Shown here: positions 1-58,773 of the stretch, in pieces
Layout of the letters: each line of letters starts with the position of its first letter
How positions within the stretch are numbered: position 1 is the first letter of the stretch
Source of the DNA: Glandiceps talaboti
Lineage: Eukaryota > Hemichordata > Enteropneusta > Spengelidae
Length of the DNA stretch: 64,000 nucleotides
Assembly (NCBI RefSeq): GCF_964340395.1
Contig: NC_135570.1
Coordinates: 556,001-620,000 of the forward strand
Reading direction: 5' to 3'
Program-made: the position numbers and the translations under genes
Notes under the pieces: generated by a model
Told to the model about the DNA's origin: nothing
Databases searched by the model: none
What the model saw: only the letters and a program-made list of their open reading frames with translations

Positions 1-1554
1 TACATATGTAATAATACCACTAGTATGTGCACACACCAGTGTAAGTAATCTCTGGTAAATATGTAATAATACCACTAGTATGTGCACACCCAAGTACAAG
101 TAATCTCTGGTACATATGTAATAATACCACTAGTATGCACACACACCAGTGCAAGTAATCTCTGGTACATATGTAATAATACCACTAGTATGTGCACACA
201 CCAGTGCAAGTAATCTCTGGTACATATGTAATAATACCACTAGTATGCACACACACCAGTGCAAGTAATCTCTGGTACATATGTAATAATACCACTAGTA
301 TGTGTACACCTGTGTAAGTAATCTCTAGTACATATGTAATAATACAACTAGTATGCACACACACCAGTGCAAGTAATCTCTGGTACATATGTAATAATAC
401 CACTAGTATGTGCACACCCAAGTACAAGTAATCTCTGGTACATATGTAATAATACCACTAGTATGTGCACACACCAGTGCAAGTAATCTCTGGTACATAT
501 GTAATAATACCACTAGTATGTGCACACACCAATGCAAGTAATCTCTGGTACATATGTAATAATACCACTAGTATGTGCACACACCAGTGTAAGTAATCTC
601 TGGTACATATGTAATAATACCACTAGTATGTGCACACACCAGTGCAAGTAATCTCTGGTACATATGTAATAATACCACTAGTATGTGCACACACCAGTGC
701 AAGTAATCTCTGGTACATATGTAATATAATACCACTAGTATGTGCACACACCAGTGTAAGTAATCTCTGGTACATATGTAATAATACCACTAGTATGTGC
801 ACACACCAGTGCAAGTAATCTCTGGTACATATGTAATAATACCACTAGTATGTGCACACACCAGTGCAAGTAATCTCTGGTACATATGTAATAATACCAC
901 TAGTATGTGCACACACCAGTGCAAGTAATCTCTGGTACATATGTAATAATACCACTAGTATGTGCACACACCAGTGCAAGTAATCTCTGGTACATATGTA
1001 ATAATACCACTAGTATGTGCACACACCAGTGCAAGTAATCTCTGGTACATATATAATAATACCACTAGTATGTGCACACACCAGTGCAAGTAATCTCTGG
1101 TACATATGTAATAATACCACTAGTATGTGCACACACCAGTGCAAGTAATCTCTGGTACATATATAATAATACCACTAGTATGTGCACACACCAGTGCAAG
1201 TAATCTCTGGTACATATGTAATAATACCACTAGTATGTGCACACACCAGTGCAAGTAATCTCTGGTACATATATAATAATACCACTAGTATGTGCACACA
1301 CCAGTGCAAGTAATCTCTGGTACATATATAATAATACCACTAGTATGTGCACACACCAGTGTAAGTAATCTCTGGTACATATGTAATAATACCACTAGTA
1401 TGTGCACACACCAGTGCAAGTAATCTCTGGTACATATATAATAATACCACTAGTATGTGCACACACCAGTGCAAGTAATCTCTGGTACATATATAATAAT
1501 ACCACTAGTATGCACACACACCAGTGTAAGTAATCTCTGGTACATATGTAATAA
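1..1554. repeat. 55-bp minisatellite, about 28 copies (continues off the left edge)
   Basis: The unit begins tacatatgtaataataccac and contains tagtatgtgcacacaccagt. Copies differ by single bases (tatgta versus tatata, gtgcaag versus gtgtaag), and a few are shorter. The tatata variant appears only from about 1050 onward, so homogenisation was local. Short frames in it are repeat artefacts. Confidence 0.95.
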
Positions 1555-2814
1555 TGACAATTACAAGTTTCTGATTATTTTAAGTACTCCACGTGTTTGT
1601 TGGTTTCTAGTGTAAAAATTATAAGTTTTAGTAACATTTATATATTATAAATCAAAAAATGAAAATTATAGAAAATTAACCTCCATTTTCACCCCCTCAT
1701 CCATATCCAGCTGTGTTAGTTGAACTGATAGAGAGGATGATATAATGTAACTGTCATTCATTGATAAACAAGAAGACAACGTGCAACTTGACTTAATCAA
1801 TACAGCCAACTTGAGAACTAAATTTTCATCTACAATGTAGTGGCTGGTCTGTATCTACAGAGCAAATACTACACAAATAAATAAACTCCACATAGCGTTT
1901 TTGCAAACATAGACAAAACACCTGCCATTCATACTTTTACAGTGAGGCTCTAAAAATCCTCTTTCTCTCTCAACTTGCACTTAGTGGTGTACAAGCAAAT
2001 GCCTTCTAGTGATTAAAAACTACCTAACTGTTTTACATAGAAGTGTAAACTGTCTAGCTGTTTTAACACTGAGATGAGGATAAATCACCAATTGCAGTTG
2101 TTACATAATACAGACTGAATCCTTGTCAGCCAAAACTCAATAATATAATCTTTGCATGACTGTCTGACCTCCTGTCTACATTCCAGTTTTCACATAGTCT
2201 CAGACAGTAATCACATCATTAATATCGTGTCCCTCAATAATTAGTCTACAGGGAGACTACAGGAAACAGACTGCCTGGTATTGACAGGTAGTGAGACTTT
2301 CATGTTTTCCGATTGAAATACTCAGGGGGATTCATTTTCATGAAAACAAAGATTCTATGAGTCTTTTATTGCTCTAATAAATAGTGTGTGACAAATTCTT
2401 TTTTTTAAACTGAAGACAAATTAGGTTGTTTACACCATCTGTTTTTTTTTTCTGAAAATAAACTTTATACATATACCATTTTGCAATGAAAGGCATGTAA
2501 ACTGAAATTGATTGTTTATGAAATTGTGCTCTATTTTAAAACTGGGATTGCAATAAAATGTATTGAGGATCAAATATTTTTTACCTTCTTTACAAATTAC
2601 ATGTCTTCATGTATCTAGAAACTATGCATGTGGTTGTTTTTTACCATATCTCTCTCTCCACTGTATAGTCAAATGGCTTTCATTAACTTGATATTTTGTT
2701 CTTACCACCGACAGCAGTAGTTTAATGCTACTGGAGTGTTGATATATACTTGATGACGTTATCACATTCTCACATGACTTACTTTCAAACTGGAGGTTGA
2801 GTTTGTAGTAAATT

Positions 2815-5340: not shown

Positions 5341-6182
5341 GACTCACCATGCATTCAGCCTCCAACAGAGACTATGGTGCAATAAGATCAATACACAATC
5401 TAGGTCAAATAAATATACTTAATTTTAGCAAACATTGTCTGCTATAGTATTTGTCTTATATTTTAGAGTTCATGGGGTTTAGTCAGTCAATGTAAAGATT
5501 GACTTGAGTGCAAATGTTTTAGACCTATAGATTACAGCCTGTAGACCCACCACAGATCTAGACACCACTCAAACATTGAAGTGCTCTCTTTTATAAGTGA
5601 ACAGTAGACTGTTTACACTTAAATAATCTTATCCATGTCTAAATACCATTCAAATTGTTTTACGATGCCCCATAAAAAGTCTCCACTAATGCTTGTCCCT
5701 GTATGACCTACCCAAAATGCATTGTTTAGGGCACCAAGTTGAAAGTCTTCATGAATTATATTGTTAAGAGTGATCATAGAATTGGGTAAAATATTTGATA
5801 AAGTTGATTACTGCTGTACGCTGAATATCATATTGTTAAAGTGTGAAATTTTACCTTGAATCATGCAAGTCCATGTATAAGGATTTTAACAATTTTAACC
5901 CATCATAGAAAAGCTTTTACATATGGACAGCATTTATTACATCTGATTGTGGCATTTTGGAGATACAGTCATTTTGAGGGCAAGATGTATCAGATAGACA
6001 ACAGATGTGAAGACAAAGTTGTAACTGTCAAATTTTTATTGCAGCATTCAAAGCTTGAAATGTTTCCTGTGTCTGTGTTCTTATCTATGGCTCAATCCCA
6101 CCCACTGTGTCAACACCCACTGGAGTGCAAACTGTCTACAACGTGTAAATTTTATAACATTTTTTCTCTTTTTTGTCAACAG

Positions 6183-6213: not shown

Positions 6214-6436
6214 GTAAGTTTGTCTACTGTCAGGTATCATTGTGTAAATTATTAACCCTATCAATACTTTTATTGTGTTGTGTATACAAGTTTGATGTTT
6301 AGGGTCACCATGGTATTCAAGGTCAAAGGTCATGTAAGGATATCAGTGTCAAATGTCACATCAGACAACAACTTATCTTGTATAAGGTAAAACAGATGAA
6401 GGAGAAATCAATCCACTCAATGTGGTGCTAAATTTT

Positions 6437-6929
6437 TGAGAAAGGACACTGGTAACAGTAAGAACTCTAGTAGTAACAGTGCGGACCCTGGTAACAGTGA
6501 GGACACTGGTAACAGTGCGGACCCTGGTAACAGTGCAGACCCTGGTAACAGTGCGGACCCTGGTAACAGTGCGGACCCTGGTAACAGTGCAGACCCTGGT
6601 AACAGTGAGGACACTGGTAACAGTGCGGACCCTGGTAACAGTGCAGACCCTGGTAACAGTGCGGACCCTGGTAACAGTGCGGACCCTGGTAACAGTGCAG
6701 ACCCTGGTAACAGTGCGGACCCTGGTAATAGTGAGGACCCTGGTAACAGTGCGGACCCTGGTAACAGTGCGGACCCTGGTAACAGTGCGGACCCTGGTAA
6801 CAGTGCGGACCCTGGTAACAGTGCAGACCCTGGTAACAGTGCGGACCCTGGTAACAGTGCAGACCCTGGTAACAGTGCGGACCCTGGTAATAGTGAGGAC
6901 CCTGGTAACAGTGCAGACCCTGGTAACAT
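6437..6929. repeat. 18-bp minisatellite, about 27 copies, inside the probable SPARC intron
   Basis: The unit is ggtaacagtgcggaccct with variants gcagaccct, gaggacact and gaggaccct. Because 18 is a multiple of 3 and the unit has no stop in several frames on either strand, long frames result, for example (NSADPG)n on the + strand and LLPGSA repeats on the minus strand. No flanking splice sites or start context support translation. Confidence 0.93.
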
Positions 6930-7419
6930 TAGGGGTCAAAGTTGGCATAGTTCTCCATACAGTGTATGATTTACCATAATTTGGGTGACAAACCCCAGTA
7001 AAATGACTGGTGGACTTAGGTTTTATTTACTTGCCACTCTTAACAAAACTTACGGATTGTAATATATCAGTGTTTTGCTTTTATGTTTTACACCTCATAG
7101 TATTATAAGAGAGATAAAAAAACAGGTAAAATTTCCTACACAGTACACATATAGAATAAGTTGTTTTGGGAACTCTGGTAGAAAAATCTTAAAACCTACT
7201 TAGGTAGATTTTACCAATATTTTTACTGTTCAGAACAAAAACACTACAGATGACTTTTATTAAATAATCTCAATAGAATCTGTGATAGTTTATAGGAAAT
7301 TATGTTATAATACGACATTTTATCATCAAACTCCTTAAAACTCTTGCTTTATCATCAAAACTTTCAAAAAAAAATTAATATTAGGTGTGAAAATATTGTC
7401 TGACAAACCTGTAGAAAAA

Positions 7420-7874: not shown

Positions 7875-7920
7875 AATGGCCTGTGATTCAATCTCAGGTT
7901 CTCACATTATCTCTTCAATG
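7875..7920 (+). repeat. tRNA-like SINE fragment
   Basis: ggcctgtgattcaatctcag then gttctcacattatctct is the reverse complement of the 3' part of the copy at 7420-7525. gattcaatctc resembles a B box. Confidence 0.45.
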
Positions 7921-7946
7921 AAGCCATAATTGTTGAAGACCAACTT

Positions 7947-8603
7947 TTTCATTGTTCTGCCAGACAACTGTTACTGTTTTCATTGTTCTGCCAGACAACT
8001 GTTACTGTTTTCATTGTTCTGCCAGACAGATGTTACTGTTTTCATTGTTCTGCCAGACAACTGTTACTGTTTTCATTGTTCTGCCAGACAGATGTTACTG
8101 TTTTCATTGTTCTGCCAGACAACTGTTACTGTTTTCATTGTTCTGCCAGACAACTGTTACTGTTTTCATTGTTCTGCCAGACAGATGTTACTGTTTTCAT
8201 TGTTCTGCCAGACAACTGTTACTGTTTTCATTGTTCTGCCAGACAACTGTTACTGTTTTCATTGTTCTGCCAGACAACTGTTACTGTTTTCATTGTTCTG
8301 CCAGACAACTGTTACTGTTTTCATTGTTCTGCCAGACAACTGTTACTGTTTTCATTGTTCTGCCAGACAATTAACTGTTACTGTTTTCATTGTTCTGCCA
8401 GACAGATGTTACTGTTTTCATTGTTCTACCAGACAAATGTTACTGTTTTCATTGTTCTGCCAGACAACTGTTACTGTTTTCATTGTTCTGCCAAACAACT
8501 GTTACTGTTTTCATTGTTCTGCCAGACAACTGTTACTGTTTTCATTGTTCTGCCAGACAACTGTTACTGTTTTCATTGTTCTGCCAAACAACTGTTACTG
8601 TTT
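7947..8603. repeat. 31-bp minisatellite, about 21 copies
   Basis: The unit contains ttttcattgttctgccagac and aactgttactg. Variants are acagatgttactg and ccaaacaac, and one copy has a 4-bp insertion near 8370. All three + strand frames are open because the unit lacks stops; the resulting Cys/Phe-rich frames are not genes. Confidence 0.95.
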
Positions 8604-8717
8604 TTCTCACACTGATTTTAATCATAAACCAACATGGTCTTTTAAAGGGCCATGATTAAATGCCATATTCTTGCTAACCTAAACCCCCCCCCCCCCCTCA
8701 TCTATATATTATATATA

Positions 8718-22980: not shown

Positions 22981-24586
22981 CACATTGAAATCTTTTATCT
23001 AACTACTGGATCTCTTGTGACAATGATTACCATATGTTGTAGTGTTTGATTATTAAAAAGGGAGAGACTAGACCCAAGGCTGATAGTCTTCTCCATGATC
23101 TATGACTTTGATGGTGATTGTGAAGGGTTCTTTTTGACAAGGTGAAGACCGTTGTTTGAAGTGTTCTAAAATAATCACATCGCTGACTGCAGTGTCAGAT
23201 AAAACCATTTCTCATGTTGTTTTAGCAAGTGGGTGTTTTGAAAAGGTCATTTGGCCCGGAATGTAGGTCACTAGGGCTATACTATGTCTTAGTACCAAAT
23301 ACATTACAAATAACTGTCCATATCCAGAAAAATTGCCAAAATTATACTCTTAACTTCGTAATAATGTAAAATTTAAAGATCGAACTGGAATAGTTGGAGG
23401 GAAAGATAAAAGATTTGTTCATTTTTTTCAAAGATTAAATTGAGAATAGAAAGGCCAATTTTAGTCTAGCGCTATCTGTGGCATCAAATCTCAAGATTTC
23501 CTTTATGGGTGAAGGTAACTTGATATCAAGGGTAGTATCTAGACTTGACCAATTTTTTAAAGCCCAGATATTTGTTTTTGTCGCTATCACAGCGTAATGT
23601 TTTAACGATGCTAAGACTCCAGACTTAATTAATTACTCCCAACCAAGCTGTGGTGAATCCATTTTAAGCTTAGACGTAACCTATGGTGTATTGGCGTCGT
23701 CACAACATACATTGGGAGTGAAGTTGAATGTGTTGGGGATCCTGCTAGGATCTTTATTTATGTTGTAGTTTGTGGATCTAGAGTACATTACCCTCCTTTA
23801 AACTAACAAGGACATGTAGTTGTGCAAGATACATGCCATAAAAATTGACTAGACCCTGTAGCTTATAAATCATCCTGGCAATGAGTGACTGCTAAAGTTT
23901 ATGGTAGTGAAATCTTTTAAATTCTTTACCCAGGATTGTACCAAGGCAACCCATGATATATACATCCTTGAAGTATTCTATTGTGCATTCCAGGGGGGAT
24001 AAATAAAAACAAAAGAATTTTGTAATGTATTGTTGGGGGCGCTATATAACATAATTTAGTTATTGCATATTGTACATACAGCTTGTCATTATCAACTGCC
24101 AACATTATTATAATCCATGAAAATGTTGATATTTTGATGATTTGTAATTGTTGCATGCTTATGAATCAAACATTTATTGATTTAATTGTAACAAGTAGTG
24201 GACTGCTTGTCTCCCGCTTGCCACCATTTGAAGAAAATAACTGAATACCAGTTACAGTAACCATGGTAACAAAAACATGGACATAAAAGACAGTGAATAA
24301 ATCAAACTGGGTCTAGTTTCCGTCATGAGGGTTGAGTTGCATACATTTGCATTCAGTGAACCAAATCCATTTGATTGAATTTTCACTAGCCAGAATGAAT
24401 TTAAATACATTACATAAAATGTACCTTGTGGTCACCTGAGTGTGTTTCACTGTTGCTGCAATGTGCCAATTGTTTTTATGTTACAAATTGTCTTTGTAGT
24501 TTTGAACTTCAGGCCAAGGATGGGGAAAATTCTGTGATTTTTTTGCCTAACTTTACTAAATTGTGATTGTTTGATTTGTAAACCAG
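22981..24586. other. intronic or upstream DNA of the SPARC-like gene
   Basis: No further exon recognised. CTCF-like cores occur at 23467-23480 (TAGCGCTATCTGTG) and 24035-24045 (GGGGGCGCTAT). Confidence 0.4.
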
Positions 24587-26674
24587 ATCCGTGTGAGTTC
24601 AAGAAATGCAAGAAACCTGTAGGATCTATGTGTCAAGTAGTTGAAAAGAAAGGTAGAAAGACAGCAGAATGTGTTTGCCCAGAAGAGTGTGATGATGAAG
24701 ATTCTCCAGTGTGCAGTGTGTATGGCCGTCAGTATGACAACCGCTGTAAGCTTCACAAACTGGCATGCAAAAAGGGAAAATATATCAGGGTAGCTTACGA
24801 AGGAAAATGTATCGGTAAGTATCACAATGTACTGCTGTATGACATTGACTTCCTGTATATTATTGACTTTCTGTTTATACGATTTAAATCAACTTCACTT
24901 GACCCAATGTTTATTTCAATTCCTCCACCAATATGACCACAACATTTTTAGTATTACTTCATTTTAGTATTACTTGTCTTGTGTTGCAGCTCTTTATGGC
25001 ATTATTGTTTTTTCTTGCTTGTAATAAAGTATGTCTTATGGTTAATGAAAATTAAGGCACAAAAACACTTTTTTACCATTTTTTAACCTTTTTACACGTT
25101 CTATTTTTTGACTGACATGTAAGTGTTGATTTCAGCTTCTCAAGAACCATGCCAGGACTATGAGTATGAGCAGTTTCCACGGCGATTGTTGGAATGGTTC
25201 CTCCATCTCAAGGAAAATGATGAGTTTGGAAGCATTAATCCTCGCAGCACTACTAGAAGCTTGTCTATGCAAGAGAAGAGAAGCCTGGCAGAGGTAAATA
25301 TATACCAGTCACCTGTCTACAATTTTGGTGTAATAGCCTGGTACAGGTAAATATATACCAGTTACTTGTCTATACACTTTTGGTGTGATAGTCTGGCAGA
25401 GGTATATATACCAGTCACCTGTCTACACTTTTGGTGTAATAGTCTGGCACAGGTATATATACCAGTCACCTGTCTACACTTTTGGTGTAATAGTCTGGCA
25501 CAGGTATATATACCAGTCACCTGTCTACACTTTTGGTGTAATAGTCTGGCACAGGTATATATACCAGTCACCTGTCTATACTTTTGGTGTAATAGTCTGG
25601 CACAGGTCAATATATACCAGTCACCTGTCTACACTTTTGGTGTAATAGTCTGGCACAGGTATATATACCAGTCACCTGTCTACACTTTTGATGTGATAGT
25701 CTGGCACAGGTAAATATACCAAGTAACACTTGGCACAGCCTGTTGGATGTACAGAGATCGACTTGTATTACATTTCATCATTTGATAAGAACAGTTTTAT
25801 GGCCTCCTTACATGATAGTTCATATCCACAAACAAATTTTAAGTACCGTACCATTTCATGTATACATAAAGAGGCCATAAACCTGTTGATATCAAACTAT
25901 GGAAAAAACACTACTGGTAGGCTCTGTACATCCAACGTACATGCTGTGCCAAGTGTCATGTAATTCGTTTATTTACTTTCCATCTTTGTGACTAGTTCTG
26001 CTTGTAAATGCTTGCATGTCACTGGTTGTATTTCAAATAAGACTAACTCAGAGAACCATCAGAAGCCAATTTTAAATATCAGCCTGAAAATCTAACTTTT
26101 ACATCATGTGTTTTGTTCCAGTGGAAATTTGATTTGTTAGATCGTAAGGGTGACAAGAAATTGGATCGCCGTGATTTCCGTGACTTCCGTTATTCTCTCA
26201 TGCCGTTAGAACATTGTGCTGATGACTTCTTTAAGGGATGTGATGATAATGGCAACAAGAAGATTACATTAGATGAATGGTTTGAATGTTTAAACCTTGA
26301 TGAAGGTATGTAGACAATCAGATATCAGTGTGGCGTGTGTGTGGTGTGGTGTGGTGTGTTGTGGTGTGGTGTGGTGTGGTGTGGTGTGGTGTGGTGTGGT
26401 GTGGTGTGTGGGGGGGAGAGAGAGCGGGAGGGAGGGTGGGTGAGCAGGTGGGCGGGCAGGCGGGAGGGAGGGAGGGAGAGAGAGAGAGATTATTTTTGGC
26501 CAATTAGATAGAGGTTATTGAAGTATAACAATATTTTAAGCCAATCAGATGAAAAGACAAACATCTCTAGCAAATGCAATTCAAGTTGGATTATGACATG
26601 TCTATTATTTATTTTTCCAGTAAAAATTCACAAATAATGATTCTAATTTATGTATTGTTTTCTTTACAGAGTAA
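24587..26674 (+). CDS. SPARC: SPARC/osteonectin-like secreted Ca-binding matrix protein (3' exons)
   Basis: Coding exons are 24587-24814, 25136-25293, 26122-26305 and 26670-26674 (stop TAA 26672-26674). All junctions are GT-AG and the phases agree. The first exon is a follistatin-like/Kazal domain with 10 cysteines, from DPCEFKKC to YEGKC. The next encodes the start of the extracellular calcium-binding (EC) domain (PCQDYEYEQFPRRLLEWF). The third has two EF-hands: loop 1 DRKGDKKLDRRD and loop 2 DDNGNKKITLDE, with the EHC...C pair between them. The protein stops right after the EC domain (CLNLDEE), as in SPARC; SMOC and testican carry extra thyroglobulin domains. SPARC proteins are secreted, bind collagen and calcium, and act in basement membranes. 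The first EF loop is an ordinary 12-residue loop with Lys at position 3, whereas vertebrate SPARC has an insertion there, so this is SPARC-like and not surely the one-to-one orthologue. Signal peptide and acidic N-terminus are not located. Confidence 0.88.
25280..25715. repeat. 51-bp minisatellite that repeats a 5' splice site, about 8 copies
   Basis: The unit runs from (t)ctggcacag|gtatatatac through cagtcacctgtctacactttt to ggtgtaatag. It starts at the exon end of the SPARC-like gene (aagcctggcagag|gtaaatatata at 25281-25304), so each copy resembles the last exon bases plus the donor. The rest lies in the intron. Confidence 0.9.
25721..26121. other. remainder of the SPARC-like intron, nothing recognised
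   Basis: Ordinary AT-rich intron sequence up to the acceptor ttttgttccag at 26111-26121. Confidence 0.5.
26328..26495. repeat. GTGTG/GA-rich microsatellite in the last SPARC-like intron
   Basis: A (gtgtg) run of about 75 bases, then purine-rich gggagggagg and gagaga runs. Confidence 0.9.
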
Positions 26675-35400: not shown

Positions 35401-38400
35401 GCTATCACAGGTACCAAGTATTTTCATTGTATTGTATTTCTTTTTTGTAGCAAATGACAAATTTACAAATGGCAGCTCAGAGACAGAGAGCCCTAGCACT
35501 AATGTGTAGAGTGTATGTTGGATCAATTAACTTTGAACTAAGGGAAGACACTATCAAACAGGCCTTTCTACCATTTGGACCAATCAAGAACATCAATTTA
35601 TCCTGGGATCCAGTCACGATGAAACACAAAGGGTTTGCCTTTGTAGAGTATGAGTTACCAGAAGCAGCTCAGTTAGCCTTAGAACAAATGAATGGTGTTA
35701 TGATTGGAGGCAGAAATATCAAGGTGAGTCTCTCAATTGTGCTTCATATATAATCTCAAGGGTATTACCATTAGATAGGCAATCATCAGATACAGTTTGA
35801 AAGTTGTGTTGCAAGCTTACCTGATAACACTGTCCCTCTTAAGGGTCTTGGTCATTGCCCAGTTTATGCCTTCATTGCATGCAACCAACTGTCTTGTAAG
35901 ATGGATTGCTAAACATGTATGTATATTGGAAATAGAAAAACAATGTTATTCTATGATGTTATTCTATGTTGTCTTAACTAATGTGTATTTTGTCTATAGG
36001 TTGGACGTCCCAGTAATATGCCACAAGCACAACCCATCATAGATCAAATCATGGAAGAAGCCAAACAATACAATCGGATATTTGTATCCTCAGTTCACCA
36101 AGATTTATCGGAAGAAGATATAAAGAGGTAAGAAAATACTATCTTTATTGTCATTCTCAGTACTGGAAATAGAATTTGACCACGTAGACGCACCATAAAA
36201 ATATCAATTTATTTATTTGATATCTTGGTTGACATGATTTTTGTTGCATACTTTATACATTTATTACTACCACTGATTGTTATATGTTGTAATATTCTTT
36301 CTAGGTATACTTTGATATTTACTATTTCATTATTTTCTCTCTATTTCAGTGTGTTTGAAGCTTTTGGAAAGATCAAAATATGTACGCTGGTGCCAGACAC
36401 TGTCCCTACAAAACACAAGTAAGTTGGTATTTTGTTGTGATGTCTTTTTTGACTTCCTTGAGAAATAACATTCAGGTAATTTATAGAGTGCCTGTCTCTA
36501 ATACAACATCAAGTTCCGTAGTCTGTCAGATACAGACATTCGTGCCACGCTATCAGCCAGTACTTGTAGTTAAGAAGCCTGATAAGCCTGAACAACGTAT
36601 CGTACAGTCTACAAGTTCTGAGGTTCTGTAAAGTTAGAAGGACAGTAAAGTATAGTTATTTTGGAACTGTAAATTAAAAATGAATGTGACATTTCAATCA
36701 GTCTCAAACAGACTTTGATCGCATTAAGTCATGTTAGACTGGTTGAAATATCACACTTGTTTCTAATTTACCAATCCAAAGTAAGCACATTTTACTGTCC
36801 TATTAAATTTGGGAACTATTTACCATTATATTAATATTGTAGTCTAGTTCCTATACTGTATCGTTACAATTAAACGTCCACTCACATAGTCTAGTTCCTG
36901 TACTGTATCGTTACCATTAAATGTCCACTCACACAGTTGGTATCCAGACTATTAATATTGTGTCTTTTCTTTTCTTTCTCCACAGAGGTTATGGCTTTAT
37001 AGAATATGAAACAAATCAATCAGCACAAGATGCGATAGCTTCTATGAATTTATTTGACTTGGGAGGGCAGTATCTAAGGGTTGGCAGGGTAAGTAAACAC
37101 ACATTCCTAGGCCATTCTGGATTCTGTCATTTAAGTGGCCAAATATCTTTTCTGTTTCAACAAAATTAATGTTATAGTGAAAATAGATTTTATCAATAGT
37201 TTCTTTTATCCCCTGTATATGAAATCTGAGTATAACAGATAAAGAATGTACAATGTTCATATGTTCAGAAAAATTCTTGCAATTCAAACCATATCTGGAA
37301 ATTCCTGGAGTATGTGGAATATTCCATAGTAATGCCACTCAAGTAACATTATTTTATGGAATGCTCAGCTGTGAAAAATTTCAAGTTGCTTAAGTAATAC
37401 ATATTTAGTTGTGATAAGTCAAATGGCAATGTGTTAGTTAGCAAGATCTGAAAAATATGGCAATGTGTTTGTATGTTCTCCAAAATATTCCTTGTAACCT
37501 AACAAAATGTTGATACAGGTATAAATCTTGGGAGTTCAAGTAAAACACTAGTTGTACAACCAGTGTAATAAATAGAGTTGTGTTGTATTCATTTCTAGGC
37601 AATAACACCACCTAATCAACAAAGTGCACAGATACCTGCCGGTCCAAGTGGACTTCCACCAGCAGCTGCAGTAGCTGCTGCAGCAGCCACAGCCAAAATA
37701 CAGGTGAGATAATCATATGTAGTAGTCATACAGTAGCACTGTTTTGAAATGTTTTACTGCTGGTGGTGCACCAACTGTAGATAGGTCACAGCCACATTCG
37801 CTTTGCAGTTGTTGTCAATAATGTTCGTGATAGCGTGTTCAGGGGATGTGGTACACGATCTAGTGAAAGTACTTAAAAGTTCTTGTCTTCAAAAATAGTA
37901 CTATATAGTGTGTAGAAATATATTGTTTGCATTCAGAGTTTAAAAACAAAATAATCTTTAGCAATATTGCAATGATAGTCAGAGTCAACTTTGTCTTCTG
38001 AAATTACTTACGCTGGATTGCATGCCGCGGCATGTACTATCATGAACGTGATGGATTATAATCACAAAACTGAAGTGGTTGAGACCTACCTAGAGTGGGT
38101 GTGTTGTCAGTGGCAAAACATTTCAAAATAGGACTATACAGCGTTTTATTCACTGGAACTATTTGGAAAGTTGCCATAATTGTTCTTTACTATAAACTAC
38201 TGTGGACAACATTATTCATAGTTTGATTGTAAATGCAATGCAGTTATAGAAGAAGGTGGAGTGTAAAAATTAACTCATAAGTTACATCAGTTGTAATGGC
38301 TGCGCAGTAAAAAAGCACAGAGAACATAATTACAGTTAACTTCTTACTCTGAAATGTTACTGAAAACACCAAAGTATATATCGTGTGTCTTTCTGATAAC

Positions 38401-43054: not shown

Positions 43055-46000
43055 ATGTCTGAATTCGACAGAACTTACGGTGGATATCGGATATTTGTTG
43101 GTGATCTCGGGCCGCGGGTCGGTAAATATGAATTAGAGAGAGAATTCGAATACTATGGGCCTTTAATCAATGTCTGGGTTGCCAGGTAAGTACAAGACAG
43201 CGAATTTGTTTATCGTTCGACTTTCAAGCCTTTCACAGGAACCGAAACCACACAGACAAGGAAGAAACTTAAATTGGCTGTTGTGACTCTTGCCTAAGTA
43301 CATTTTATTAATTGGTACATTATTTAATAGACTTCAGCAAACCTACACAAACGGTGTTTGACAGAAGTGAGAATTTTCACGATTTAAGTTGGTGTTATTA
43401 AAAGTATTATAATTATTCACAATAGTTTTGAGGAAGGTGGAAATGTGATAAGCATCGAAAGCTGACGCGACGCCACATTGTAGTAACACCACCAATCGTT
43501 CACAAGTTCCAAGAATATTGCAGCCAAGCACAATGTTATCATGATGGAAGTAGAAATTCAGCTCTAGTATAACATCGGAGATAAAGAGATACTGTGTCGC
43601 TAGTACGAGTACTGCAACATGTGTATAACTTAGTGATGATTGCGAGTGGTGTATGGTGGGGGTTTGCTTCGTACTCGAGGAGTAAATGACCCAGTTTTTG
43701 TAACCACACGTCCGTCCGTGATTGGTCAAACACAGCTGAAACCTTTTCCAAATCGTAGTTCCTCCTGTCCAGATCTGACAGTTTATCAACAGTAACATGG
43801 GAACATGTGATCTCGACCACAGGCACTTGAATCAATCTGTAAAGACTGCACTGTATATGTTGGTTGTTTTTTTAAATGTATAGTAAAATAATTATTTACT
43901 ATACATTAAAAAAACAAAACAAACAGATTGATTCGATCGAGTGCCTGTGCATGTGATCTCAACCAAACATTTCAAATTGGTACATCTGTATTCAATCAAT
44001 CTTTATTATACACTAGCAGAGTGTGGTATGGTAGGGTAGTACAAATTATGTAAAAAAACAAAATGTGTACAAGGCTCACAATTGACAAGCATAAAAAAGT
44101 ATACAAGCCAACTTTGATCTGTTTTATGGAGCTAATATTGTTTAGGCTTAGACCAGGCAAGGGTTCAAGATGTATAATTCCCATGTTTGGTTATTTCCCA
44201 CAATTCCTCATGTCAAGTGTACAGCAGCCCTCTTACGATATAAGCCAAATTTACCACCGATTTGTATTACTCTGTTTACTTTTATATATAACTAGATCAA
44301 CATATATATGTAGTAGCTAGGTAGTTTTAGAACTAAAGAAAAAATAATGAAAGAAAAAAACTGTTTCAAAAATGATTTTGACTCAGTGTGGTGCACATGA
44401 TATGCAAAATCAGTCTGTTTATGTATGTTATCAGGAATGTATTTGTTTATACATCCCGGATTCCCTGATGTTATCACGAGTGTGAAGCTACCATCATATT
44501 CACTTTCAAAAGTTGACCCCTAAGCTCAATCTCAATATGATGATGGCTTCACACGTTCATCATCAGATTCGAAGTCTTCCGAATGGGTACGAATGCGAGT
44601 TCGGCAAATCACATGAAACCGTCATTGGCAGGTTGAAATCATGCCATTGTGATTACTTTTCACTTGAATTGCATGGATTTGCATGCTCGCTTTTTATTTT
44701 TGCCAGAGTATCCAATTTGCGCCATGAATTACTGTTGTCATGGACCATTATTTTTTAACAGCAGCAAGTTCGAATCTGTTGATGACAGTCCGCTTGTTGG
44801 TGGTTTCTCTACTCACATCGACGAGCGAACTTCATGGAAAGGTAAATATATCAGGCGAGTTGATTTCTTACATTAGCTTTCATAAGATCAGTTGTTTCTT
44901 GGCAAAAACATTCGTGGTCTAAGCCTTTCGTCATGATCGAGGTCTCATCACGGAAAGTAGTTGTACTTACAATTCGGGTTGCAATACTCCCATCTTTGTT
45001 TTTGTTTACAAGCAAATATTACATGTAGTGATTGATATACAAATGTACTAATACTATACTTGTAATTGTTCAGTTCCTCCCAGTGTTTTGGCCGTAACTA
45101 ATAGTTACTATTAGGATTAACCTATATGAAAGGAGCCAGCTGGTCCTTCATGTAATTATCTGAACATACCTACAACTTGAAAAGTATTGTATTTTGTCAA
45201 TGTATGTTGATTCACAGACAGTGGAGCACTGTTTATGGTTGATTGTTGCTCTACATGTTACCATTAAAGTTCCACATACGTGATAACCACTTGTCAGTAT
45301 TATTATGTGTACGTCTACGATCATAAAGTTACATTGTAATGATTCCATTTTGTAACCGCAAACAACATAAACATGATTTCTTCTTTTTGGTGCTACTACA
45401 TTAGGTGGTGAAAACCCAATGATAAGAACAATGCTACAACTCAAACTGAACTTCCTGTTTTTGTATCTGCTCACATGAATGAATTATTTTCATTCATAGC
45501 ATAGAATGATTTTGATAAATTAATCAAAAAGATTTTAACACATAGATAATACCTCTGAACTGTTCGACTGTAATTCTTGTATGCTTTGGAATCTAACTCA
45601 TCACCAAGCAGTTTCATAGCACACATTTGCACTTTTTCACATTTTTCAACACTTGACTGAAGTATTAGAATGACAGAAGAATACCATGAAATCCACATCA
45701 TATGATAAACATACAAATTATTACATTATACAAGATTTCTGATACTAATGTGGCTATTGTATTGGTGTACCCTTATTTTATACTTACTTTGATAAAAGTT
45801 TTGCATTTCAAATATCATTATCCTTATTTTTGTAGAATCACTCAATGGCATGTTCTAAACAAAACTCTATGTACATATTTAATCAATAATCATCTGATAA
45901 CGTTCCATGCTGAAATATATGATAAGGAACAACTACCGTGAATAACCTGATAATGAGAAAGGAAGTTCATGTACATTTTTATTATATGTCACATATGTTG

Positions 46001-49000: not shown

Positions 49001-52000
49001 ACTTCAAAACTACCTGGCAGATATACATATTCAATTGAACATCCTGTTCTGATAATAACTTGAATTTCAATATCAGTTATACACAATGTCATTGACACTA
49101 TTTTTTTTAAATTGTTGTTTCCTATTTGCCCCAAGTGTGTACATTTGAAATTAAAGAGTGGCCATTTTCACTAGCATTTGTCACAGAATCATACTGATAA
49201 ATTCAAATTAGTTAATTAGTGTGGCTTTTATTTATACATTAATATATACTACAATCAAAACATAAGGACATTATAACCGCTCTCTACATATACCTGGATG
49301 ATACATGTAGTCAATAGACACACACTAGAACTACTGTATATTTTAATATTTATATTTCATAGATCATTATTAACTTTATTTTGTTTAAATACCAAATTAG
49401 AAATGTAAAATTTTCTAAACGGCTAAAATAAAGTGTTATCTTATCTTATCTTATCTATGGTATTTGTTGATATTTTGCAGTCTTGTTGTGTTAAGAAATA
49501 AACTTCCAGATCCACTATACATGTAATTATCCTTTAATGACTTTCTATTCCTTTTCCAAAACTTACTCCATGGGTCTGAAAAGTAAAAGAAAATTTATTG
49601 ACATCAATATCACATGAATGGATACAATAGAAGAAAGTATATCACAACTATTTTGTAGAGTATACAGATATATGGGTAGTAATACACCCTCTGTTTCTGT
49701 AATTGGTATAAAAGACATATACTAGTAATCTCAGTTACACTGTAATGGTTGGTTGCCATGATGGTGTTTTTTTGGCGTAGTGTAGTTCGTAATACTATAC
49801 AGTATCTGTATAGTACCTGCTACGACTCACCATAGAGAGTTGTTAGGGTTAGAAACAACATTTGGCATCCAGACTAGGTTTGGCAATACTTAGTTAGGGA
49901 TCAGAGGGTTGCTTTAGTATAGATCAAGTCCTAATGATTACAACTTGTCCTGGCAAATACCGCTAACCTGAACTGAACAAGTACACTACGTAATATTTGT
50001 AAACAAAAACAAGTACATGTGCAAAGATATTAAGATGGGACTCGGGAGTATCGTATGCACAACTACTTTCCGTGATGACACCTCGATCGAAACGAAAGAC
50101 TTGGACCATGTGCACGAATGTATTCACCAAGTAACAACCGATCTTATGAAAGCTAATGTAAGAAATCAACTCGCCTGATATATTTACCTTTCCATGAAGT
50201 TCAACTATGCTTGCTCGCTCGTCGATGTGAGTAGAGAAACCACCAACGAGCGGACTGTCATCAACAGATTCGAACTTGCTGCTGTTAAAAAATAATGGTC
50301 CATGACAACAGTAATTCATGGAGCAAATTGGATACTCTGGCAAAAATAAAAAGCGAGCATGCAAATCCATGCAATTCAAGTGAAAAGTAATCACAATGGC
50401 ATGATTTCAACCTGCCAATGACGGTTTTATGTGATTTGCCGAACTCGCATTCGTACCCATTCGGAAGACTTCGAATCTGATGATGAACGTGTGAAGCCAT
50501 CATCATATTGAGATTGAGCTTAGGGGTCAACTTTTGAAAGTGAATATGAATATGAATATGATGGTAGCTTCACACTCGTGATGTTATCCAGTGCATGAAC
50601 TATGTAGAGATACTCCTGGCAAAGGTCATTCAATGAATTTCCATAATTTGTTTTATCTGTTTGTAGAAATCCACCAGGTTTTGCCTTTTTAGTGTATAAA
50701 TACAAAGAGGATGCTGACAGAGCTGCACGTGCCTTGGATGGAAGGTATGTATATATATATAGCATATATTATACCATGATGTGAAAGCCAAGTTGTATAT
50801 GTTCAAACTAAAAAAAATATATACATCATTGGTTCTATCGACAGTGTTGAAAATTTGAGTCAACATGTTCAAAATCATCATTGATTTCACTGGTCAGGAT
50901 TGTTCATAAATTGTGCTTATAGAGGTCTAGGTATATTAGCCTTGCACCAAGGGTATTAGTCACAGTACAACTTTTGTATTCAGGTAATTTTAAATTCAGC
51001 ATAGCTTTCTATGCTGAAAAGATTGAAAGTCTTGGCTATTCTGTAAACAACATTTTCAAGCCAGTAGCAATCAACCAAGCATTAGGTCTCTGAGTTTGAC
51101 ATCTTTTTAGTATCATATGTTTGTGAATTAAGATGGGGTATGTATACAAATTGATGATGAACCCTTTCCTTACAGAACTGTGTGTGGGAGGCGTGTACGA
51201 GTAGAACATGCTAGACCCATGCCACCTCGTGGTAGCAGAAGACCGCCCCCACCACGTCGTTGGGATCCCAGCATGAAATGTTACACATGTGGAGAGCGTG
51301 GGCACTTTGCTCGCGACTGTGACCGAGATCATTATCGTAGTAGTAGACGTAGTAGTCGTTACAGCAGGTGAGTCAAATATGAAGGAATTCAACACTCCAG
51401 CATGAACTTTGAACTTTGCCTGTCAGCTGTTGAGTAGTATAGTACAACAGTGGCATATCAACTATCGCCAAACAAACATAGACACAAACTACAACTATTA
51501 TTGTGACATGTTGATATTAGGTATCAATTGATGTTGATGTAACTATACTCACAGTAGGCTGGTGTCTCTGATAGTGGGCATGACATTCATCTCCACATTT
51601 TAGTGTTTACACTATCTTGATTACAGGGTGAATGAATATATCTGGCATCTGCATAACCAGGGTATCGCTATTACCCATTTTGGTAATGTATCACATACAA
51701 CAACAGTAGTTTGAGTTGGTGTCTATCTTAGTTTGTGAATAACATGTTTTGCATAGTAATGCAATCATTGATCAGTAAGAAAATGTATTGTTTTATTTAG
51801 AGATAGAATTTTATCTTAAAAGTGTTTGCACATGGTTGTAAAATCCACAGTTACCCTGAGATGTGACAGCCACATTTAAAATGCAATCAGATCATGGAAT
51901 GTACATGTTATTTTGATAACTACAATAATTATTGCAGTGTGTGTTCAAACTTGGTATATAACCACCATAAATAATCTATTTTGAATTTGAGATAGTCTTT

Positions 52001-55000
52001 CATCTTTTTCATTTGATAACTAGGCTTTCAATAACTTGGAATTTAGGAACAATTATGTTCTATTTTGACTTGTAATGGTCAAGTAGATGATATTGATTTA
52101 TGGAATATCATATGAATACTTGACAAACGACAATTACTAGTGGAAAATGAAAATTGTACACTGTCAAACTCCCAAGTCGATGTTTGTTTAAATGGATAAA
52201 TGTAAATAGCCAAGTATAAAAAACAACATGAAATATGAAAAATATTGCCCTCTTTAAATTTTGCAGTATGGATTATGTCTATTTGTTTACCTATATTTTA
52301 ATGGGTTTTTTTTTTCATTTTTACGACTTGGAACAATACAGATGTACTAAAGATGAGAACAGAGACAAAAAAAAACACATTTTGTAGACAAAGGTAGAAG
52401 TTAGAAGAGGGACACACATGCTATAGTATTACATAGAATGGCTTTGAATAAAGAAATGGTTCTGTAAAAGTTTACAAGCTATGAATTCAAACTAAATCAA
52501 TTAAATATGCAAAGATATATACCAAATATAATTCATAGACAAAATACTATTATAATCAACAACATAGATTATATGAATAAAATATTCCTCTTTCTCCTAA
52601 CTCGTACTTAGTTATGTATAACTATAAACAAATAAATAATCTTTGATATCTAAATAGTGCAGAAAGTTAATATGAAATTCTAAACTTCTATGGTTGAATG
52701 TAACAATTTAATGGTAGTCATAATTAATGTGTGTGTTTGTAACCTATAAATGTATATACCATATTTGAATTCCACTGTAATAATTAAACCTAACATGTTC
52801 AGCTCTTGTACAATGTATGTCTTTCATGGACGTCTTCTTTCTTTTTTCCATGTTATTAATTTTTTTTCTTCATTTTTTGTGCAATGACTTGCTTGTTATT
52901 CAGGGTGTACAGGATAAGTTATAAACCAAACGATACCCACCAAAAACATACTGGCCATACATTCGAAAGCCACAGCCTTGTACTAGCATACTCAGCACCA
53001 ATTTGAGAAATGCAACATGAGATCGAACCAAGCATGTCTTGTATAACCAAACGACAACTGATAATGAAAGCAGTTGGCTCCAACTTACCAATCCCATGCG
53101 GGAGTGGCCATACTCACTTAATTCAATGTGAAGAGAGAGCGAGACCCAAACCCAGTTAAAGCTAAAACTCATAGTGCAACTACATGTTACAAAGCGTGCA
53201 ACTACCAAAATTAAGTCACTGTACACCATGTCACTACACATTCTTCTCCTCCAGTGTTGTACACCATATAAGCTACTGCGTTTACTACTTTTGACTGCAC
53301 TATGCATTAAAACTTGTGTACCAGGAGTAGGTAAATAACCAACAAACCTTTGTCTTTTTCTACTTTTAAAAAGGTACAGGTATTCTACTTGTTCATTCAA
53401 ACTATGGCAGACCAATCATGTCATTACTTTCATTTTAAAAAATTGACAAATTATGCCGTTACTCAGAGTCTTGTCTCCAAAAAACTATGGCAAACCATGT
53501 CAATGATACTCCTGTTTCCAAGTCATAGGATACTCCGAAGGGACATATTTCCCTGAAAATCAAAGTTTCTCATTTCTCTCAAAACTTCCCATGAAAGCTT
53601 GTCTCAGGTCTGGTTGAAATAATAAAAGAAATTTGGGTTTTGTGGTCTTGTTTTCATGGCAATTGACAATCTTTATGATGTTCCCATAGAATTCTAGAGT
53701 ATTTGGCAGCCATATTGGATTCTAAAATGACTAAATTTTGATATCATTTTGACCACATTTTAAAAAAATTTGTGTGAGAGCCCCAGATTATTTTATCTTA
53801 AAAAAAGTAACAGTATAAGTTGAAAGAATTATTTCCAAGGCACAGTCTGCAGTAACAGCATCAACAATTTTGTAATGCAAATACAGGCATATATCTTTAC
53901 AGTAAAAAATGAAGTCAGACCAAACTACTTGCAACCATTTTCATTGAAACTTCAATTTTCATACAAGAATTATCCTATACTTTGAACTCATTGAGTCTTT
54001 CATTTGGTTAAACCTGCCAAATAAAATGAATAATTGGTAACAACTGAGTAACTGCTGAAATGACATTGTGTCGTAGTTTGAATGGACTAGTAATCATTCA
54101 TCACCAGTGCTGTCCATGTACTACTACTATATGGATGTGTTGAACACATGCTAGTCATTTATGGTCTCCGTAATTCCTTTTTTTGTCATGTACATGTATT
54201 TATACCGTGGTGGGGGGGGGGGGGGTGTTATAGATTGATACTGTGGAGGGAATGTGTTATAAATTGATACCGTGGGGGGGGGGGGGGGGTCTTATTATAG
54301 ATTGATACCGTGGGAGAATGTGTTATAGGTTGATACCGTGGGGGAATACCCCATATTTTTATTTGAGAACTTAGTTCTAATCTATAATCTAAGGTGCAGA
54401 ATAGTTCGATTCATTGATTGATGGGGGTTTGATGTGATTGGGTGCAAGGTTCTATTGAGGTACATGATATTAATAGTTATATAATTCTTCTCATTCTCAA
54501 ACACATGGTGTTATACAGAGATGTACATATAGTACATTATACATATGAATGTCAAATGGCTTGACAGCTACTATTTACATGTGGACCTATATTATTTCTA
54601 AAATCATGTACAGTAAACAGAACCTTGCATTGTGACATTGAAATGTTATTTGTACGATATGAGAGAATCAGTGAGTCTCGTACATGTGTTCAGAACTGGT
54701 AGGTACTTAAGAGGTAGTACAGATGTACAGACTTTTTATGTAAAGTAAGAATATATCATGTTACAGCTTACCCCCGGCATTATTTGATGTTGTTTTCTTT
54801 CACCCTTTTGTATTTTAGTTTATTTGGACTGTCAATCATAAATACAGACTTTGGTACAGCTACTTAAAAAGCAAGCCACATAACAATATACTAGTCTTGT
54901 AAAATGTATAACAAGAACCCATGGACTGTAGTTGAGGTCCCTTTGCCAGTTCCAAATTAGGGGGTCCGTCTGCCAGACCTAGTTTAGTCTATGAACTAAA

Positions 55001-55597
55001 GTTACAGATTGTAGTAAATCTATATTTGTATACTCAAGGATTCATTGTTGGCTTACAAATTGGTCCATTCAGGCTATGAATGACAAACTTTATTGGAATA
55101 TTCAAGGCTCAAAATTAAAATTAAATTCCAGCCCTGATATTGTGGAACTCGTCAATACACTCTTTTATTACTTGCATGAAGATAATTATGTGACACAGAA
55201 TAGCATGTATTGTAAACAAAAAGGGTAATAATATCCAAGATATCAGGAAATAGTAAGTATTTGAAGTGATTGTCAATCATAGATGTCAGTTCAGGTAATA
55301 CAGTCGCTGTGGAGATACCAATACATATCTCTAGCTTGTAAACAAATTTGATTTGAACTCATATGACCAGTGGTTATGTATTACTAGTATTACTTTATGA
55401 TAGGTGTGTATGGTATAAGCAGTATTACATGATATGGTTTTAATATGATTACTGACAGTTATATCTATCTTTCTCTGACACACAGGAGCAGATCCCGATC
55501 ACCAATCAGAAGCAGGTCCCGATCTCGTTCCCACTCCAGAAGTGCAGGTGGTTACAGTAGAAGTAGAAGTCGTTCATACTCACCGGGAAGAAGATAA
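43055..55597 (+). CDS. SRSF7: SR splicing factor, SRSF7/9G8-like (RRM + CCHC zinc knuckle + RS), 4 coding exons
   Basis: Exons: 43055-43185, 50667-50744, 51176-51367, 55486-55597; 513 nt, 170 residues plus stop, with consistent phases. The RRM is about aa 11-82: RNP2 is RIFVGDL, and RNP1 is PGFAFLVY just after the first junction. A CCHC zinc knuckle ([14 protein letters not shown], aa 105-118) follows a Pro/Arg linker. The tail (about aa 122-170) is rich in Arg-Ser pairs. RRM plus one zinc knuckle marks the 9G8/SRSF7 group (RSZ proteins of plants, insect 9G8/x16 relatives). Such proteins bind exonic enhancers, shuttle from the nucleus and help mRNA export; RS phosphorylation controls them. 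At 170 residues it is shorter than human SRSF7 (about 238), mainly because of a short RS tail. Intron 1 holds a large inverted-repeat insertion, and intron 3 a probable poison exon (52904-53330). The one-to-one name is inferred from domain order. Confidence 0.92.
43186..43816 (+). other. start of intron 1 of the SRSF7-like gene
   Basis: The minus strand is open for about 150 codons over 43343-43798, but no known protein family, start context or splice pattern supports a gene. Nothing else seen. Confidence 0.4.
43817..43949. repeat. inverted repeat in intron 1 of the SRSF7-like gene
   Basis: The outer arms caggcacttgaatcaatctgt and acagattgattcgatcgagt-gcctg enclose a near-perfect AT palindrome (tttttttaaatgtatagtaa / tttactatacattaaaaaaa) at 43864-43917. 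Confidence 0.7.
44476..45080 (+). repeat. left terminal inverted repeat of the intron-1 insertion
   Basis: It pairs with 49970-50579 in inverted orientation. The two arms have diverged by scattered substitutions and small indels, for example a shorter run of the cattcatatt-type repeat near the left tip than near the right one (tgaatatgaatatgaatatg at 50541-50560). Both arms share the open frame containing [18 protein letters not shown], which is probably a chance frame. Confidence 0.8.
45136..49914. other. interior of the inverted-repeat insertion, no gene recognised
   Basis: AT-rich with short frames only. It holds a purine-rich stretch (46115-46205), a poly-G run (46700-46718) and, at 49431-49456, a sequence ending in about three TTATC units, which looks like the 3' tail of a LINE or SINE nested inside the element. 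I found no transposase, integrase or polymerase motif. Confidence 0.5.
49970..50579 (-). repeat. right terminal inverted repeat of the intron-1 insertion
   Basis: Reverse complement of 44476-45080. It contains a small insertion (about 9 bp) relative to the left arm near 50206-50214. Its outer end is followed by GATGTTATC, the same 9 bases that precede the left arm. Confidence 0.8.
51368..52903 (+). other. first part of intron 3 of the SRSF7-like gene
   Basis: AT-rich; ends with a long pyrimidine-rich tract leading to the candidate poison exon. No repeat of note. Confidence 0.5.
52904..53330 (+). other. putative poison cassette exon of the SRSF7-like gene
   Basis: A long pyrimidine tract (52840-52880) and ...gcttgttattcag precede 52904; CCAGGAGTAG then gtaaat gives a donor at 53331. 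The upstream exon ends with AG, so splicing gives AG|G and an open frame [16 protein letters not shown]... for 34 codons, with stop TGA at 53004-53006. The stop would lie about 320 nt before the exon end, a set-up for nonsense-mediated decay. The block has visibly more G+C than its flanks and lacks stops over about 170 codons on the minus strand, suggesting constraint. Vertebrate SRSF3 and SRSF7 have conserved poison exons in the matching intron, used for autoregulation. Confidence 0.55.
53331..55485 (+). other. rest of intron 3 of the SRSF7-like gene
   Basis: Contains the G-rich repeat at 54195-54355 and otherwise AT-rich sequence with no exon seen before the acceptor ctgacacacag at 55475-55485. 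Confidence 0.5.
54195..54355. repeat. poly-G tandem repeat, 4 copies
   Basis: The unit is gttatagattgataccgtgg followed by a G run of variable length (3 to 17) in intron 3 of the SRSF7-like gene. The long G runs could form quadruplexes on the + strand. Confidence 0.85.
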
Positions 55598-56923: not shown

Positions 56924-57617
56924 AATATAATTATACCTCTTCAAACATAATCTATGGAAAATGAGGAAAAATCATGGTGAATTATTTGACTCATTTGGAA
57001 CACCACAGAACCAGTGTGACATGGACATGGGTTGTTATGATGGAGGACAACCAGGGTATAGTATCCATATTTTGTGTTCAAAGGTAAAAACTTGGCTTGT
57101 GCATATGACAGGTCTTGAACTAGTTCATATTCATGGCTTCTAGATTCATACTTACAAATTAAAGTTTCTACTGACAAAGTCAAACATTTCTGTCAAATGA
57201 AATCTAAATTTTGTCAGCATCATTACCCAAGGGATGTCCTACTAAAAGAATGAAGAATAGGGTACTGGGGTTTTATATTATTAGTAATAGTAGGACTATA
57301 TACTTCATACTTCAAAAATCTGTTGTTGTTTTCAGTTTATTTAAAACCTGAGAAATGTTCTGAGAAATGGAAGTACAAGTCTTACAATTCTTTTGAATTC
57401 ACATTTGTTAGTTAGTTTATATCTTCTTAACTCTTAATTAGTCACTGATATTTATTCGTGATCTTGCTCTGATATTTGTTTTGTTTTATTCATCTGTACT
57501 CATTTCATTATCTGGAAAAAAAAACTTGTTAATCATTCTTATGAAATACAACTATAATCTTGAGGATATGACATTTCATGCCACCTTATCAGCTACCACT
57601 GTTGTACAGAAAGGAAG
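56924..57617. other. intergenic, nothing recognised
   Basis: AT-rich; overlapping short frames on both strands without support. Confidence 0.4.
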
Positions 57618-58773
57618 TATTCAACATCTAGTCACTAGTACAAGATTCAACATCCAGTCACTAGTACAAGATTCAACATCTAGTCACTAGTACAAGATTC
57701 AACATCCAGTCACTAGTACAAGATTCAACATCTAGTCACTAGTACAAGATTCAACATCTAGTCACTAGTACAAGATTCAACATCTAGTCACTAGTACAAG
57801 ATTCAACATCTAGTCACTAGTACAAGATTCAACATCTAGTCACTAGTACAAGATTCAACATCTAGTCACTAGTACAAGATTCAACATCCAGTCACTAGTA
57901 CAAGATTCAACATCTAGTCACTAGTACAAGATTCAACATCCAGTCACTAGTACAAGATTCAACATCTAGTCACTAGTACAAGGCGATGGAAAAGATTCAA
58001 CATCTAGTCACTAGTACAAGATTCAACATCTAGTCACTAGTACAAGATTCAACATCTAGTCACTAGTACAAGATTCAACATCCAGTCACTAGTACAAGAT
58101 TCAACATCTAGTCACTAGTACAAGATTCAACATCTAGTCACTAGTACAAGATTCAACATCCAGTCACTAGTACAAGATTCAACATCTAGTCACTAGTACA
58201 AGATTCAACATCTAGTCACTAGTACAAGATTCAACATCCAGTCACTAGTACAAGGCGATGGAAAAGATTCAACATCTAGTCACTAGTACAAGATTCAACA
58301 TCCAGTCACTAGTACAAGATTCAACATCTAGTCACTAGTACAAGATTCAACATCCAGTCACTAGTACAAGATTCAACATCTAGTCACTAGTACAAGATTC
58401 AACATCTAGTCACTAGTACAAGATTCAACATCCAGTCACTAGTACAAGGCGATGGAAAAGATTCAACATCTAGTCACTAGTACAAGATTCAACATCTAGT
58501 CACTAGTACAAGATTCAACATCTAGTCACTAGTACAAGATTCAACATCCAGTCACTAGTACAAGGCGATGGAAAAGATTCAACATCTAGTCACTAGTACA
58601 AGATTCAACATCCAGTCACTAGTACAAGATTCAACATCTAGTCACTAGTACAAGATTCAACATCTAGTCACTAGTACAAGATTCAACATCCAGTCACTAG
58701 TACAAGGCGATGGAAAAGATTCAACATCTAGTCACTAGTACAAGATTCGACATCTAGTCACTAGTACAAGACG
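57618..58773. repeat. 26-bp minisatellite, about 44 copies, with recurring ggcgatggaaaa insertions
   Basis: The unit is gattcaacatctagtcacta then gtacaa. Position 12 is T or C (catctag/catccag) in an irregular order. The insertion ggcgatggaaaa occurs near 57982, 58254, 58447, 58562 and 58705, and a variant (acgatgccaaaa) ends the array. Confidence 0.95.

Follow-up and report, generated by a model that had tools for sequence, protein, structure and literature searches.

Introduction

The closest described counterparts of the locus analysed here are the human genes SRSF3 and SRSF7. Exon 4 of human SRSF3 (456 nt) is a conserved, stop-bearing exon whose inclusion is promoted by SRSF3 and leads mainly to nonsense-mediated decay (NMD), as stated in PMC10321290. 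SRSF7 (9G8), a gene of the RRM-zinc knuckle-RS type, possesses a PTC-bearing alternative exon, according to PMC9022966 and PMC12179342. As regards RNA binding, PMC9022966 gives CNNC or CNYC as the motifs of SRSF3 and GAY or CNYC as those of SRSF7, and PMC3439968 reports crosslinks of SRSF3 within its own cassette exon, with one figure treating the SRSF7 exon too. In invertebrates, SR poison exons are known for SRSF5, and duplicated genes can have a homologous one in common; this is found in Lareau and Brenner 2015 (PMC4379411), dealing with the ancient unproductive splicing of SRSF5 and the turnover in SRSF4/6, where most human SR genes are reported to have acquired unproductive splicing independently, with poison exons at non-homologous positions. 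The genes described below are comparable to the SRSF4/5/6 case in that invertebrate SR genes with (candidate) poison exons are concerned and duplicates share a homologous exon, but they belong to a different SR subfamily, and the passages in question (PMC4379411) name SRSF3 once and SRSF7 never.

SR poison exons are, as a class, already known, and the candidate presented here would join that class. Among the literature titles searched, none dealt with such an exon in an SRSF3/7 gene of an invertebrate. Rbp1 of Drosophila is SRSF3-like, and Kumar and Lopez are said to have described, in 2005, a mutual negative feedback of the Drosophila SR factors Rbp1 and Rbp1-like, a case similar to the present one in concerning invertebrate SR factors under negative feedback. 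For SRSF7 (9G8), a 2001 report by Lejeune names intron 3 in its title.

An SRSF3/7-Family Gene in the Window

The window, i.e., the whole 64 kb stretch of Glandiceps talaboti DNA that was analysed and that corresponds to bases 556001–620000 of contig C24, carries on the + strand an SR-protein gene with four coding exons, encoding an RRM, a CCHC zinc knuckle and an RS tail. Exon boundaries were taken from splice consensus and frame alone, and the protein was spliced by hand. Coding exon 1 (43055–43185) includes RNP2 of the RRM and ends with NVWVA[R] at the donor AG/GTAAGT; coding exon 2 (50667–50744), with phase 2 on both sides, was obtained as a six-frame match; coding exon 3 (51176–51367) comprises the end of the RRM and the CCHC zinc knuckle, and closes in phase 2 at the donor CAG/GTGAGT; coding exon 4 (55486–55597) encodes the RS domain up to the stop TAA at 55595–55597. 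The phase-2 intron 3 (51368–55485, + strand) holds the candidate exon which is the main subject of this work.

In Pfam, the window protein matched RRM_1 at E 1e-13 and zf-CCHC at E 5e-8, the RS domain being identified by reading, and the top relatives among solved structures were human SRSF7 (E 2.5e-27) and SRSF3 (E 2.4e-23). The domain architecture of SRSF7 (RRM, CCHC zinc knuckle, RS domain) is indeed present, and to this extent the designation "SRSF7-like" given by the sequence-only reading is appropriate; as an orthology label it is loose. At the level of the RRM, the window protein shares 57% identity with human SRSF7 and 58% with SRSF3, versus 69% and 74%, respectively, for L019, a gene of the same genome which has a zinc knuckle too, and 78% to SRSF7 for the related gene L021, so that the RRM nearest to SRSF7 within the genome is not that of the window gene. 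In an RRM tree (9 rows, 74 columns; no starred clade) the window gene was placed on a long branch beside the pair L018/L020, a position lacking strong support. Due to these lower identities and to the long branch, SRSF7 orthology is doubtful, and the window gene is a divergent SRSF3/7-family paralogue.

A Candidate Poison Exon in Intron 3

The candidate cassette exon spans positions 52904–53330 of the + strand (427 nt), between the acceptor TTATTCAG/GG (last intron base 52903) and the donor GAGTAG/gtaaat, after which the intron resumes at 53331. Continuing from exon 3 in phase 2 (AG/G GTG TAC ...), the frame runs for 34 codons to a TGA at 53004–53006, located 324 nt before the exon end and the 53330–55486 junction, i.e., far beyond the distance of ~50–55 nt upstream of the last junction that is taken as the limit for NMD. 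Since 427 is 1 mod 3, inclusion would shift the reading frame as well. The acceptor, the AG/gtaaat-type donor, the 34-codon frame and a stop about 320 nt before the exon end, all claimed beforehand, were thus found in place. An acceptor and a donor delimiting a cassette within an SR-gene intron do exist. When scored with generic matrices, the sites proved ordinary and the donor weak: the 52903/53331 pair ranks 4th among the 7087 acceptor-donor pairs of intron 3, and pairs scoring as high occur 77 times on the + strand and 63 times on the - strand of the whole window. Splice-site strength, being at chance level, was discarded as exon evidence. The in-frame stop is no evidence for a poison exon either, as one is expected within a 427-nt AT-rich stretch.

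These observations would be in line with 52904–53330 being a pseudoexon, that is, a compositional fluctuation of a long intron lying between an ordinary AG and an ordinary GT, never included or included merely as splicing noise. Equally strong pairs are common, an in-frame stop is expected by chance and, as described below, pentamer repetition within the exon is ordinary. Composition and copy number bear on the other side of the question. With the window itself used as background for the nulls, the GC content of the candidate exon (0.415) was equalled by 5.0% of the 427-nt windows and its contrast with the flanks by 0.8%, in agreement with the earlier claim of a block richer in G+C than its surroundings; the composition of the exon is moderately beyond chance. 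With 26 CNNC motifs, the exon exceeds all 129 overlapping windows taken from introns 1 and 3. Shuffled versions of the exon average 25.4, however, which makes the high count an effect of composition. A single pentamer, ACCAA, is over-represented (seven copies, z 3.49). It gave P 0.05 in a first test as a private repeated motif and was dropped, being ordinary against 154 window tiles (tiles with more than 10% tandem repeat or overlapping the candidate exon omitted), 53 of which have a top pentamer with z at least 3.5.

Unsupervised segmentation of intron 3 delimited an A+C-rich segment at 52924–53253 of the + strand (64% versus 48% outside), its left edge lying 20 nt inside the exon and its right edge falling on an acceptor-like site within the exon. 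In the unmasked run, 21 of 112 (A+C) and 19 of 112 (C) window segments score at least as high; as the top ones lie mostly at tandem repeats, the segmentation was repeated with masking. The masked A+C segment covers 52924–53239, and its score is reached by only 2 of 224 overlapping segments of intron size within the window. Masked segmentation on C only returned 52924–53611 (right edge ~53605–53611, not coinciding with the donor 53331), equalled by 8 of 224 segments, the single distinct place scoring above it being near 26300. In both the masked and the unmasked nulls, + strand segments overlapping intron 3 were dropped.

A genome search (590 Mb, 47 contigs; very common words are skipped by the search) gave one match for the candidate exon, and an origin from a transposon or dispersed repeat was rejected on this ground. 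Intron 3 does contain dispersed repeats (+ strand) on both sides of the exon. The upstream one (51447–51760) has three long matches at 70–74% identity and some short ones among the matches listed, and the downstream one (53539–53837), which does not overlap the exon, more than 30 matches at 74–81% among the best 40 of 2803 candidates scored. Searched at gathering scores, Rfam returned no element in the window. Altogether, the A+C block is among the most extreme outside tandem repeats, it has a single genomic match and it lies in an intron where the paralogues hold hyperconserved exon-like blocks (see below); a pseudoexon is accordingly a rather unlikely explanation, albeit one to be taken seriously.

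An internal acceptor, cttctcctccag/TG, with last intron base 53254, scores 4.63, above the acceptor at 52903 and second best of the intron after that of exon 4 (5.0), and would define an alternative exon of 76 nt (53255–53330, + strand) with an in-frame TGA at 53292–53294, merely 36 nt before its end (by reading). The functional unit might therefore have other boundaries, namely this shorter exon, a variant such as 53255–53607, or a retained or detained intron. The A+C segment, ending at 53253, fits such a scheme, and a feedback by intron retention in SRSF7, with repeated binding motifs, has been described (PMC9022966). The 76-nt exon, however, would omit the A+C-rich part, which lies upstream of 53254, the inferred exons of the relatives are 355–433 nt long and the donor at 53608 falls inside the dispersed repeat 53539–53837. 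We consider such alternative boundaries improbable.

The Open Minus Strand

The minus strand of the block had been noted as unexpectedly free of stops, and it is: it stays open for 171 codons over 52900–53415, a length attained by none of 500 dinucleotide shuffles of 52700–53600 (shuffle maximum, 145). An antisense gene, of which the block would be an exon, could in principle explain an open frame exceeding all shuffles. Against this, Pfam at E 0.1 gave no family for the 171-codon frame, the rest of the genome offered nothing closer than E 0.5, and open frames of 147–162 codons are present elsewhere in the window. Based on the lack of a Pfam family and of a better genome match, the antisense frame is probably noncoding, and an antisense gene is a very improbable account of the block.

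Related Genes in the Same Genome

A search of the genome with the family protein retrieved six relatives, L018 to L023 (L018, L019, L020, L021, L022 and L023). L021 and L022, a convergent pair, are SRSF3-like and lack a zinc knuckle (contig C18, near 23.79 and 23.81 Mb); L019 has an RRM and a zinc knuckle and resembles both SRSF3 and SRSF7; L018 and L020, also a pair, combine an RS stretch at the N-terminus with an RRM and a zinc knuckle (C18, near 9.81 and 9.60 Mb); L023 is an apparently intronless copy. All five relatives with introns share with the window gene the position and phase of this intron, the exon completing the RRM region ending in phase 2. Downstream RS exons were located in L019, L021, L022 and L020; the examined stretch of L018 yielded none, making the cassette nature of the L018 block less certain.

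The exons inferred in this intron of the relatives are 355–433 nt long, compared with 427 nt for the window exon; their ends were inferred from consensus, with L021/L022 acceptors scoring below 3.5 and an uncertain L019 donor. They lie at 6358–6713 of L021, 5877–6231 of the L022 reverse complement, 5784–6143 of the L018 reverse complement and 6769–7123 of L020, and in L019 from 3570 onwards. When joined to the upstream exon, those of all five relatives reach an in-frame stop after 1–3 codons, versus 34 in the window exon. The window exon, L019, L021 and L022 all begin as CAG/GG. Comparison of the window exon with the blocks of the relatives gave no usable similarity, the best two matches falling in the pyrimidine tract. 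Segmentation singled out the inferred exons of L021, L022 and L019 when run on C and that of L020 when run on G; in L018, the highest-scoring G and C segments were at other places.

The C-rich block of L019 (L019:3570–4002), in a gene SRSF7-like by architecture, has its stop after 3 codons and one genome match. It contains TCAGC ten times versus 1.1 expected in shuffles (z 7.0, above all 154 window tiles). Top pentamers of the other relatives were CAACT in L021 (z 4.6) and L022 (z 5.1), ATGGT in L018 (z 4.9) and GATGA in L020 (z 4.4), values that are equalled by some window tiles. CAAC is found 18 and 19 times in the inferred exons of L021 and L022, respectively, against 5.8 in shuffles, and this richness fits the CNNC/CNYC binding of SRSF3 and its crosslinking to its own exon. 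Human SRSF3 exon 4 (PMC10321290) compares with the window candidate in belonging to an SRSF3/7-family gene, in having about the same length and in carrying a stop as an alternative exon. Its closest counterpart here is the L021/L022 exon and not the window exon, and the window gene differs in having a zinc knuckle.

With SRSF7, the window gene has in common the RRM-zinc knuckle-RS organization and a PTC-bearing (candidate) exon; L019 is nearer to the human proteins. A Split-ORF of the SRSF7 type was also considered and rejected for the window exon, which lacks an ATG opening the RS frame; in none of the four exons inspected (window, L019, L021 and L022) is the last stop of the RS frame followed by an ATG.

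Conserved Intron Blocks in the Duplicate Pairs

The intron of L021 and L022 aligns in a single block, rich in CAAC and CNNC (L021:6288–6841; L022 reverse complement:5807–6372), of 568 nt at 94% identity, above the 87%, 78% and 89% of the three coding exons. Within it, the inferred exon (356 and 355 nt) shows 3 mismatches in 355 aligned positions plus a 1-nt indel, whereas 18 of 60 fourfold-degenerate sites differ (Fisher p 6e-14). The block has two matches in the genome search. Among the candidates examined, it is the strongest for a poison exon, as judged from sequence.

In the L018/L020 pair, an ATGGT-rich block (L018 reverse complement:5728–6150; L020:6714–7130) is conserved over 426 nt at 92.7%, versus 73% and 79% in the coding exons, again with two genome matches. 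Its inferred exon shows 12 mismatches over 355 positions and a 5-nt indel, against 37 of 61 fourfold-degenerate sites that differ (Fisher p 2e-26), and identity stops at the donor GTAAGTA. Elsewhere the intron gives some shorter, weaker matches and the remainder is unaligned. Further downstream, a second noncoding block of 438 nt at 91% was observed (L032 ~1378–1799, minus strand; L033 ~702–1139), holding an exon-like 36-nt piece, cttcag/ACCATGGCC...AAACAG/gtatat.

The indels break the reading frame, and the conserved blocks are therefore not constrained as protein. Conserved, stop-bearing noncoding blocks with exon-like splice sites are, in terms of sequence, marks of poison exons. The simplest cause of the conservation within pairs would be selection; alternatively, gene conversion restricted to the blocks might have kept the two copies alike, given that both pairs consist of oppositely oriented genes on C18. 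A further alternative is that the block acts as a DNA element (enhancer) or as an intronic RNA element and is not spliced as an exon. Conservation in L021/L022 overruns the inferred exon by ~70 nt on the upstream and by 128 nt on the downstream side, and the second conserved block of L018/L020 would also be in line with such an element. This account is nevertheless highly unlikely, as L018/L020 identity ends at the GTAAGTA donor and the blocks carry CAG/G acceptors together with stops that are in phase with the preceding exon.

Proposed Regulation

The reading that we favour, and regard on balance as probable, is that 52904–53330 is a poison cassette exon coupling splicing to NMD. Our confidence goes no further because the stop comes 34 codons in, the exon has no usable similarity to those of the relatives and ACCAA repetition is ordinary. 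The initial proposal of a poison exon gains indirect but strong support from the sister genes, with the same phase-2 intron and two pairs whose blocks diverge less than fourfold-degenerate sites; the contribution of the window exon itself is modest.

We infer that the candidate exon is included in RNA, that the product undergoes NMD and that an SR protein is the regulator. Skipping of the exon would join exon 3 to exon 4 in phase 2 and yield the complete protein with RRM, zinc knuckle and RS domain; with the exon included, translation would end at the TGA 53004–53006, the mRNA would be subject to NMD and no RS-domain protein would be made. Abundant SR protein, either the gene's own or its SRSF3/7 relatives binding C-containing motifs, would then increase inclusion and establish a negative feedback. 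Binding of the window protein to its own exon, and thus autoregulation, is plausible.

Six SRSF3/7-family members of one genome have, at the same place, an intron of the same phase with a candidate poison exon. The exons are rich in sequences that vary by subfamily: CAAC in the SRSF3-like pair, TCAGC in L019, ATGGT in L018/L020 and A+C in the window gene. As a tentative generalization, which may well prove too broad, the SRSF3/7 family of this animal might be governed by poison exons residing in one ancestral phase-2 intron, with subfamily-specific sequences, and duplicates might keep near-identical exons so as to be sensed and limited as one pool. Whether the circuit is older than vertebrates and whether the identical exons of duplicates are kept for pooled regulation can thereby be asked in a single animal.

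Other Features of the Window and Genome

Two further domain-coding exons were noticed in the window: an RRM exon of another gene at 35451–35753 (Pfam RRM_1, E 1e-19), which we take to be a PUF60-like gene, and a Kazal-type domain exon at 24538–24900 (Pfam Kazal_2, E 3e-7). Tandem repeat arrays at 6373–7026 and 7887–8655 give rise to long spurious open frames, and a third array, with a unit of ~26 nt, was recognized by eye at 57600–58000. Outside the window, the mitochondrial contig C40 (51,222 bases) has three COX1 matches (read with TGA as Trp) of identical score, spaced by 15,435 bases in the manner of a head-to-tail assembly.
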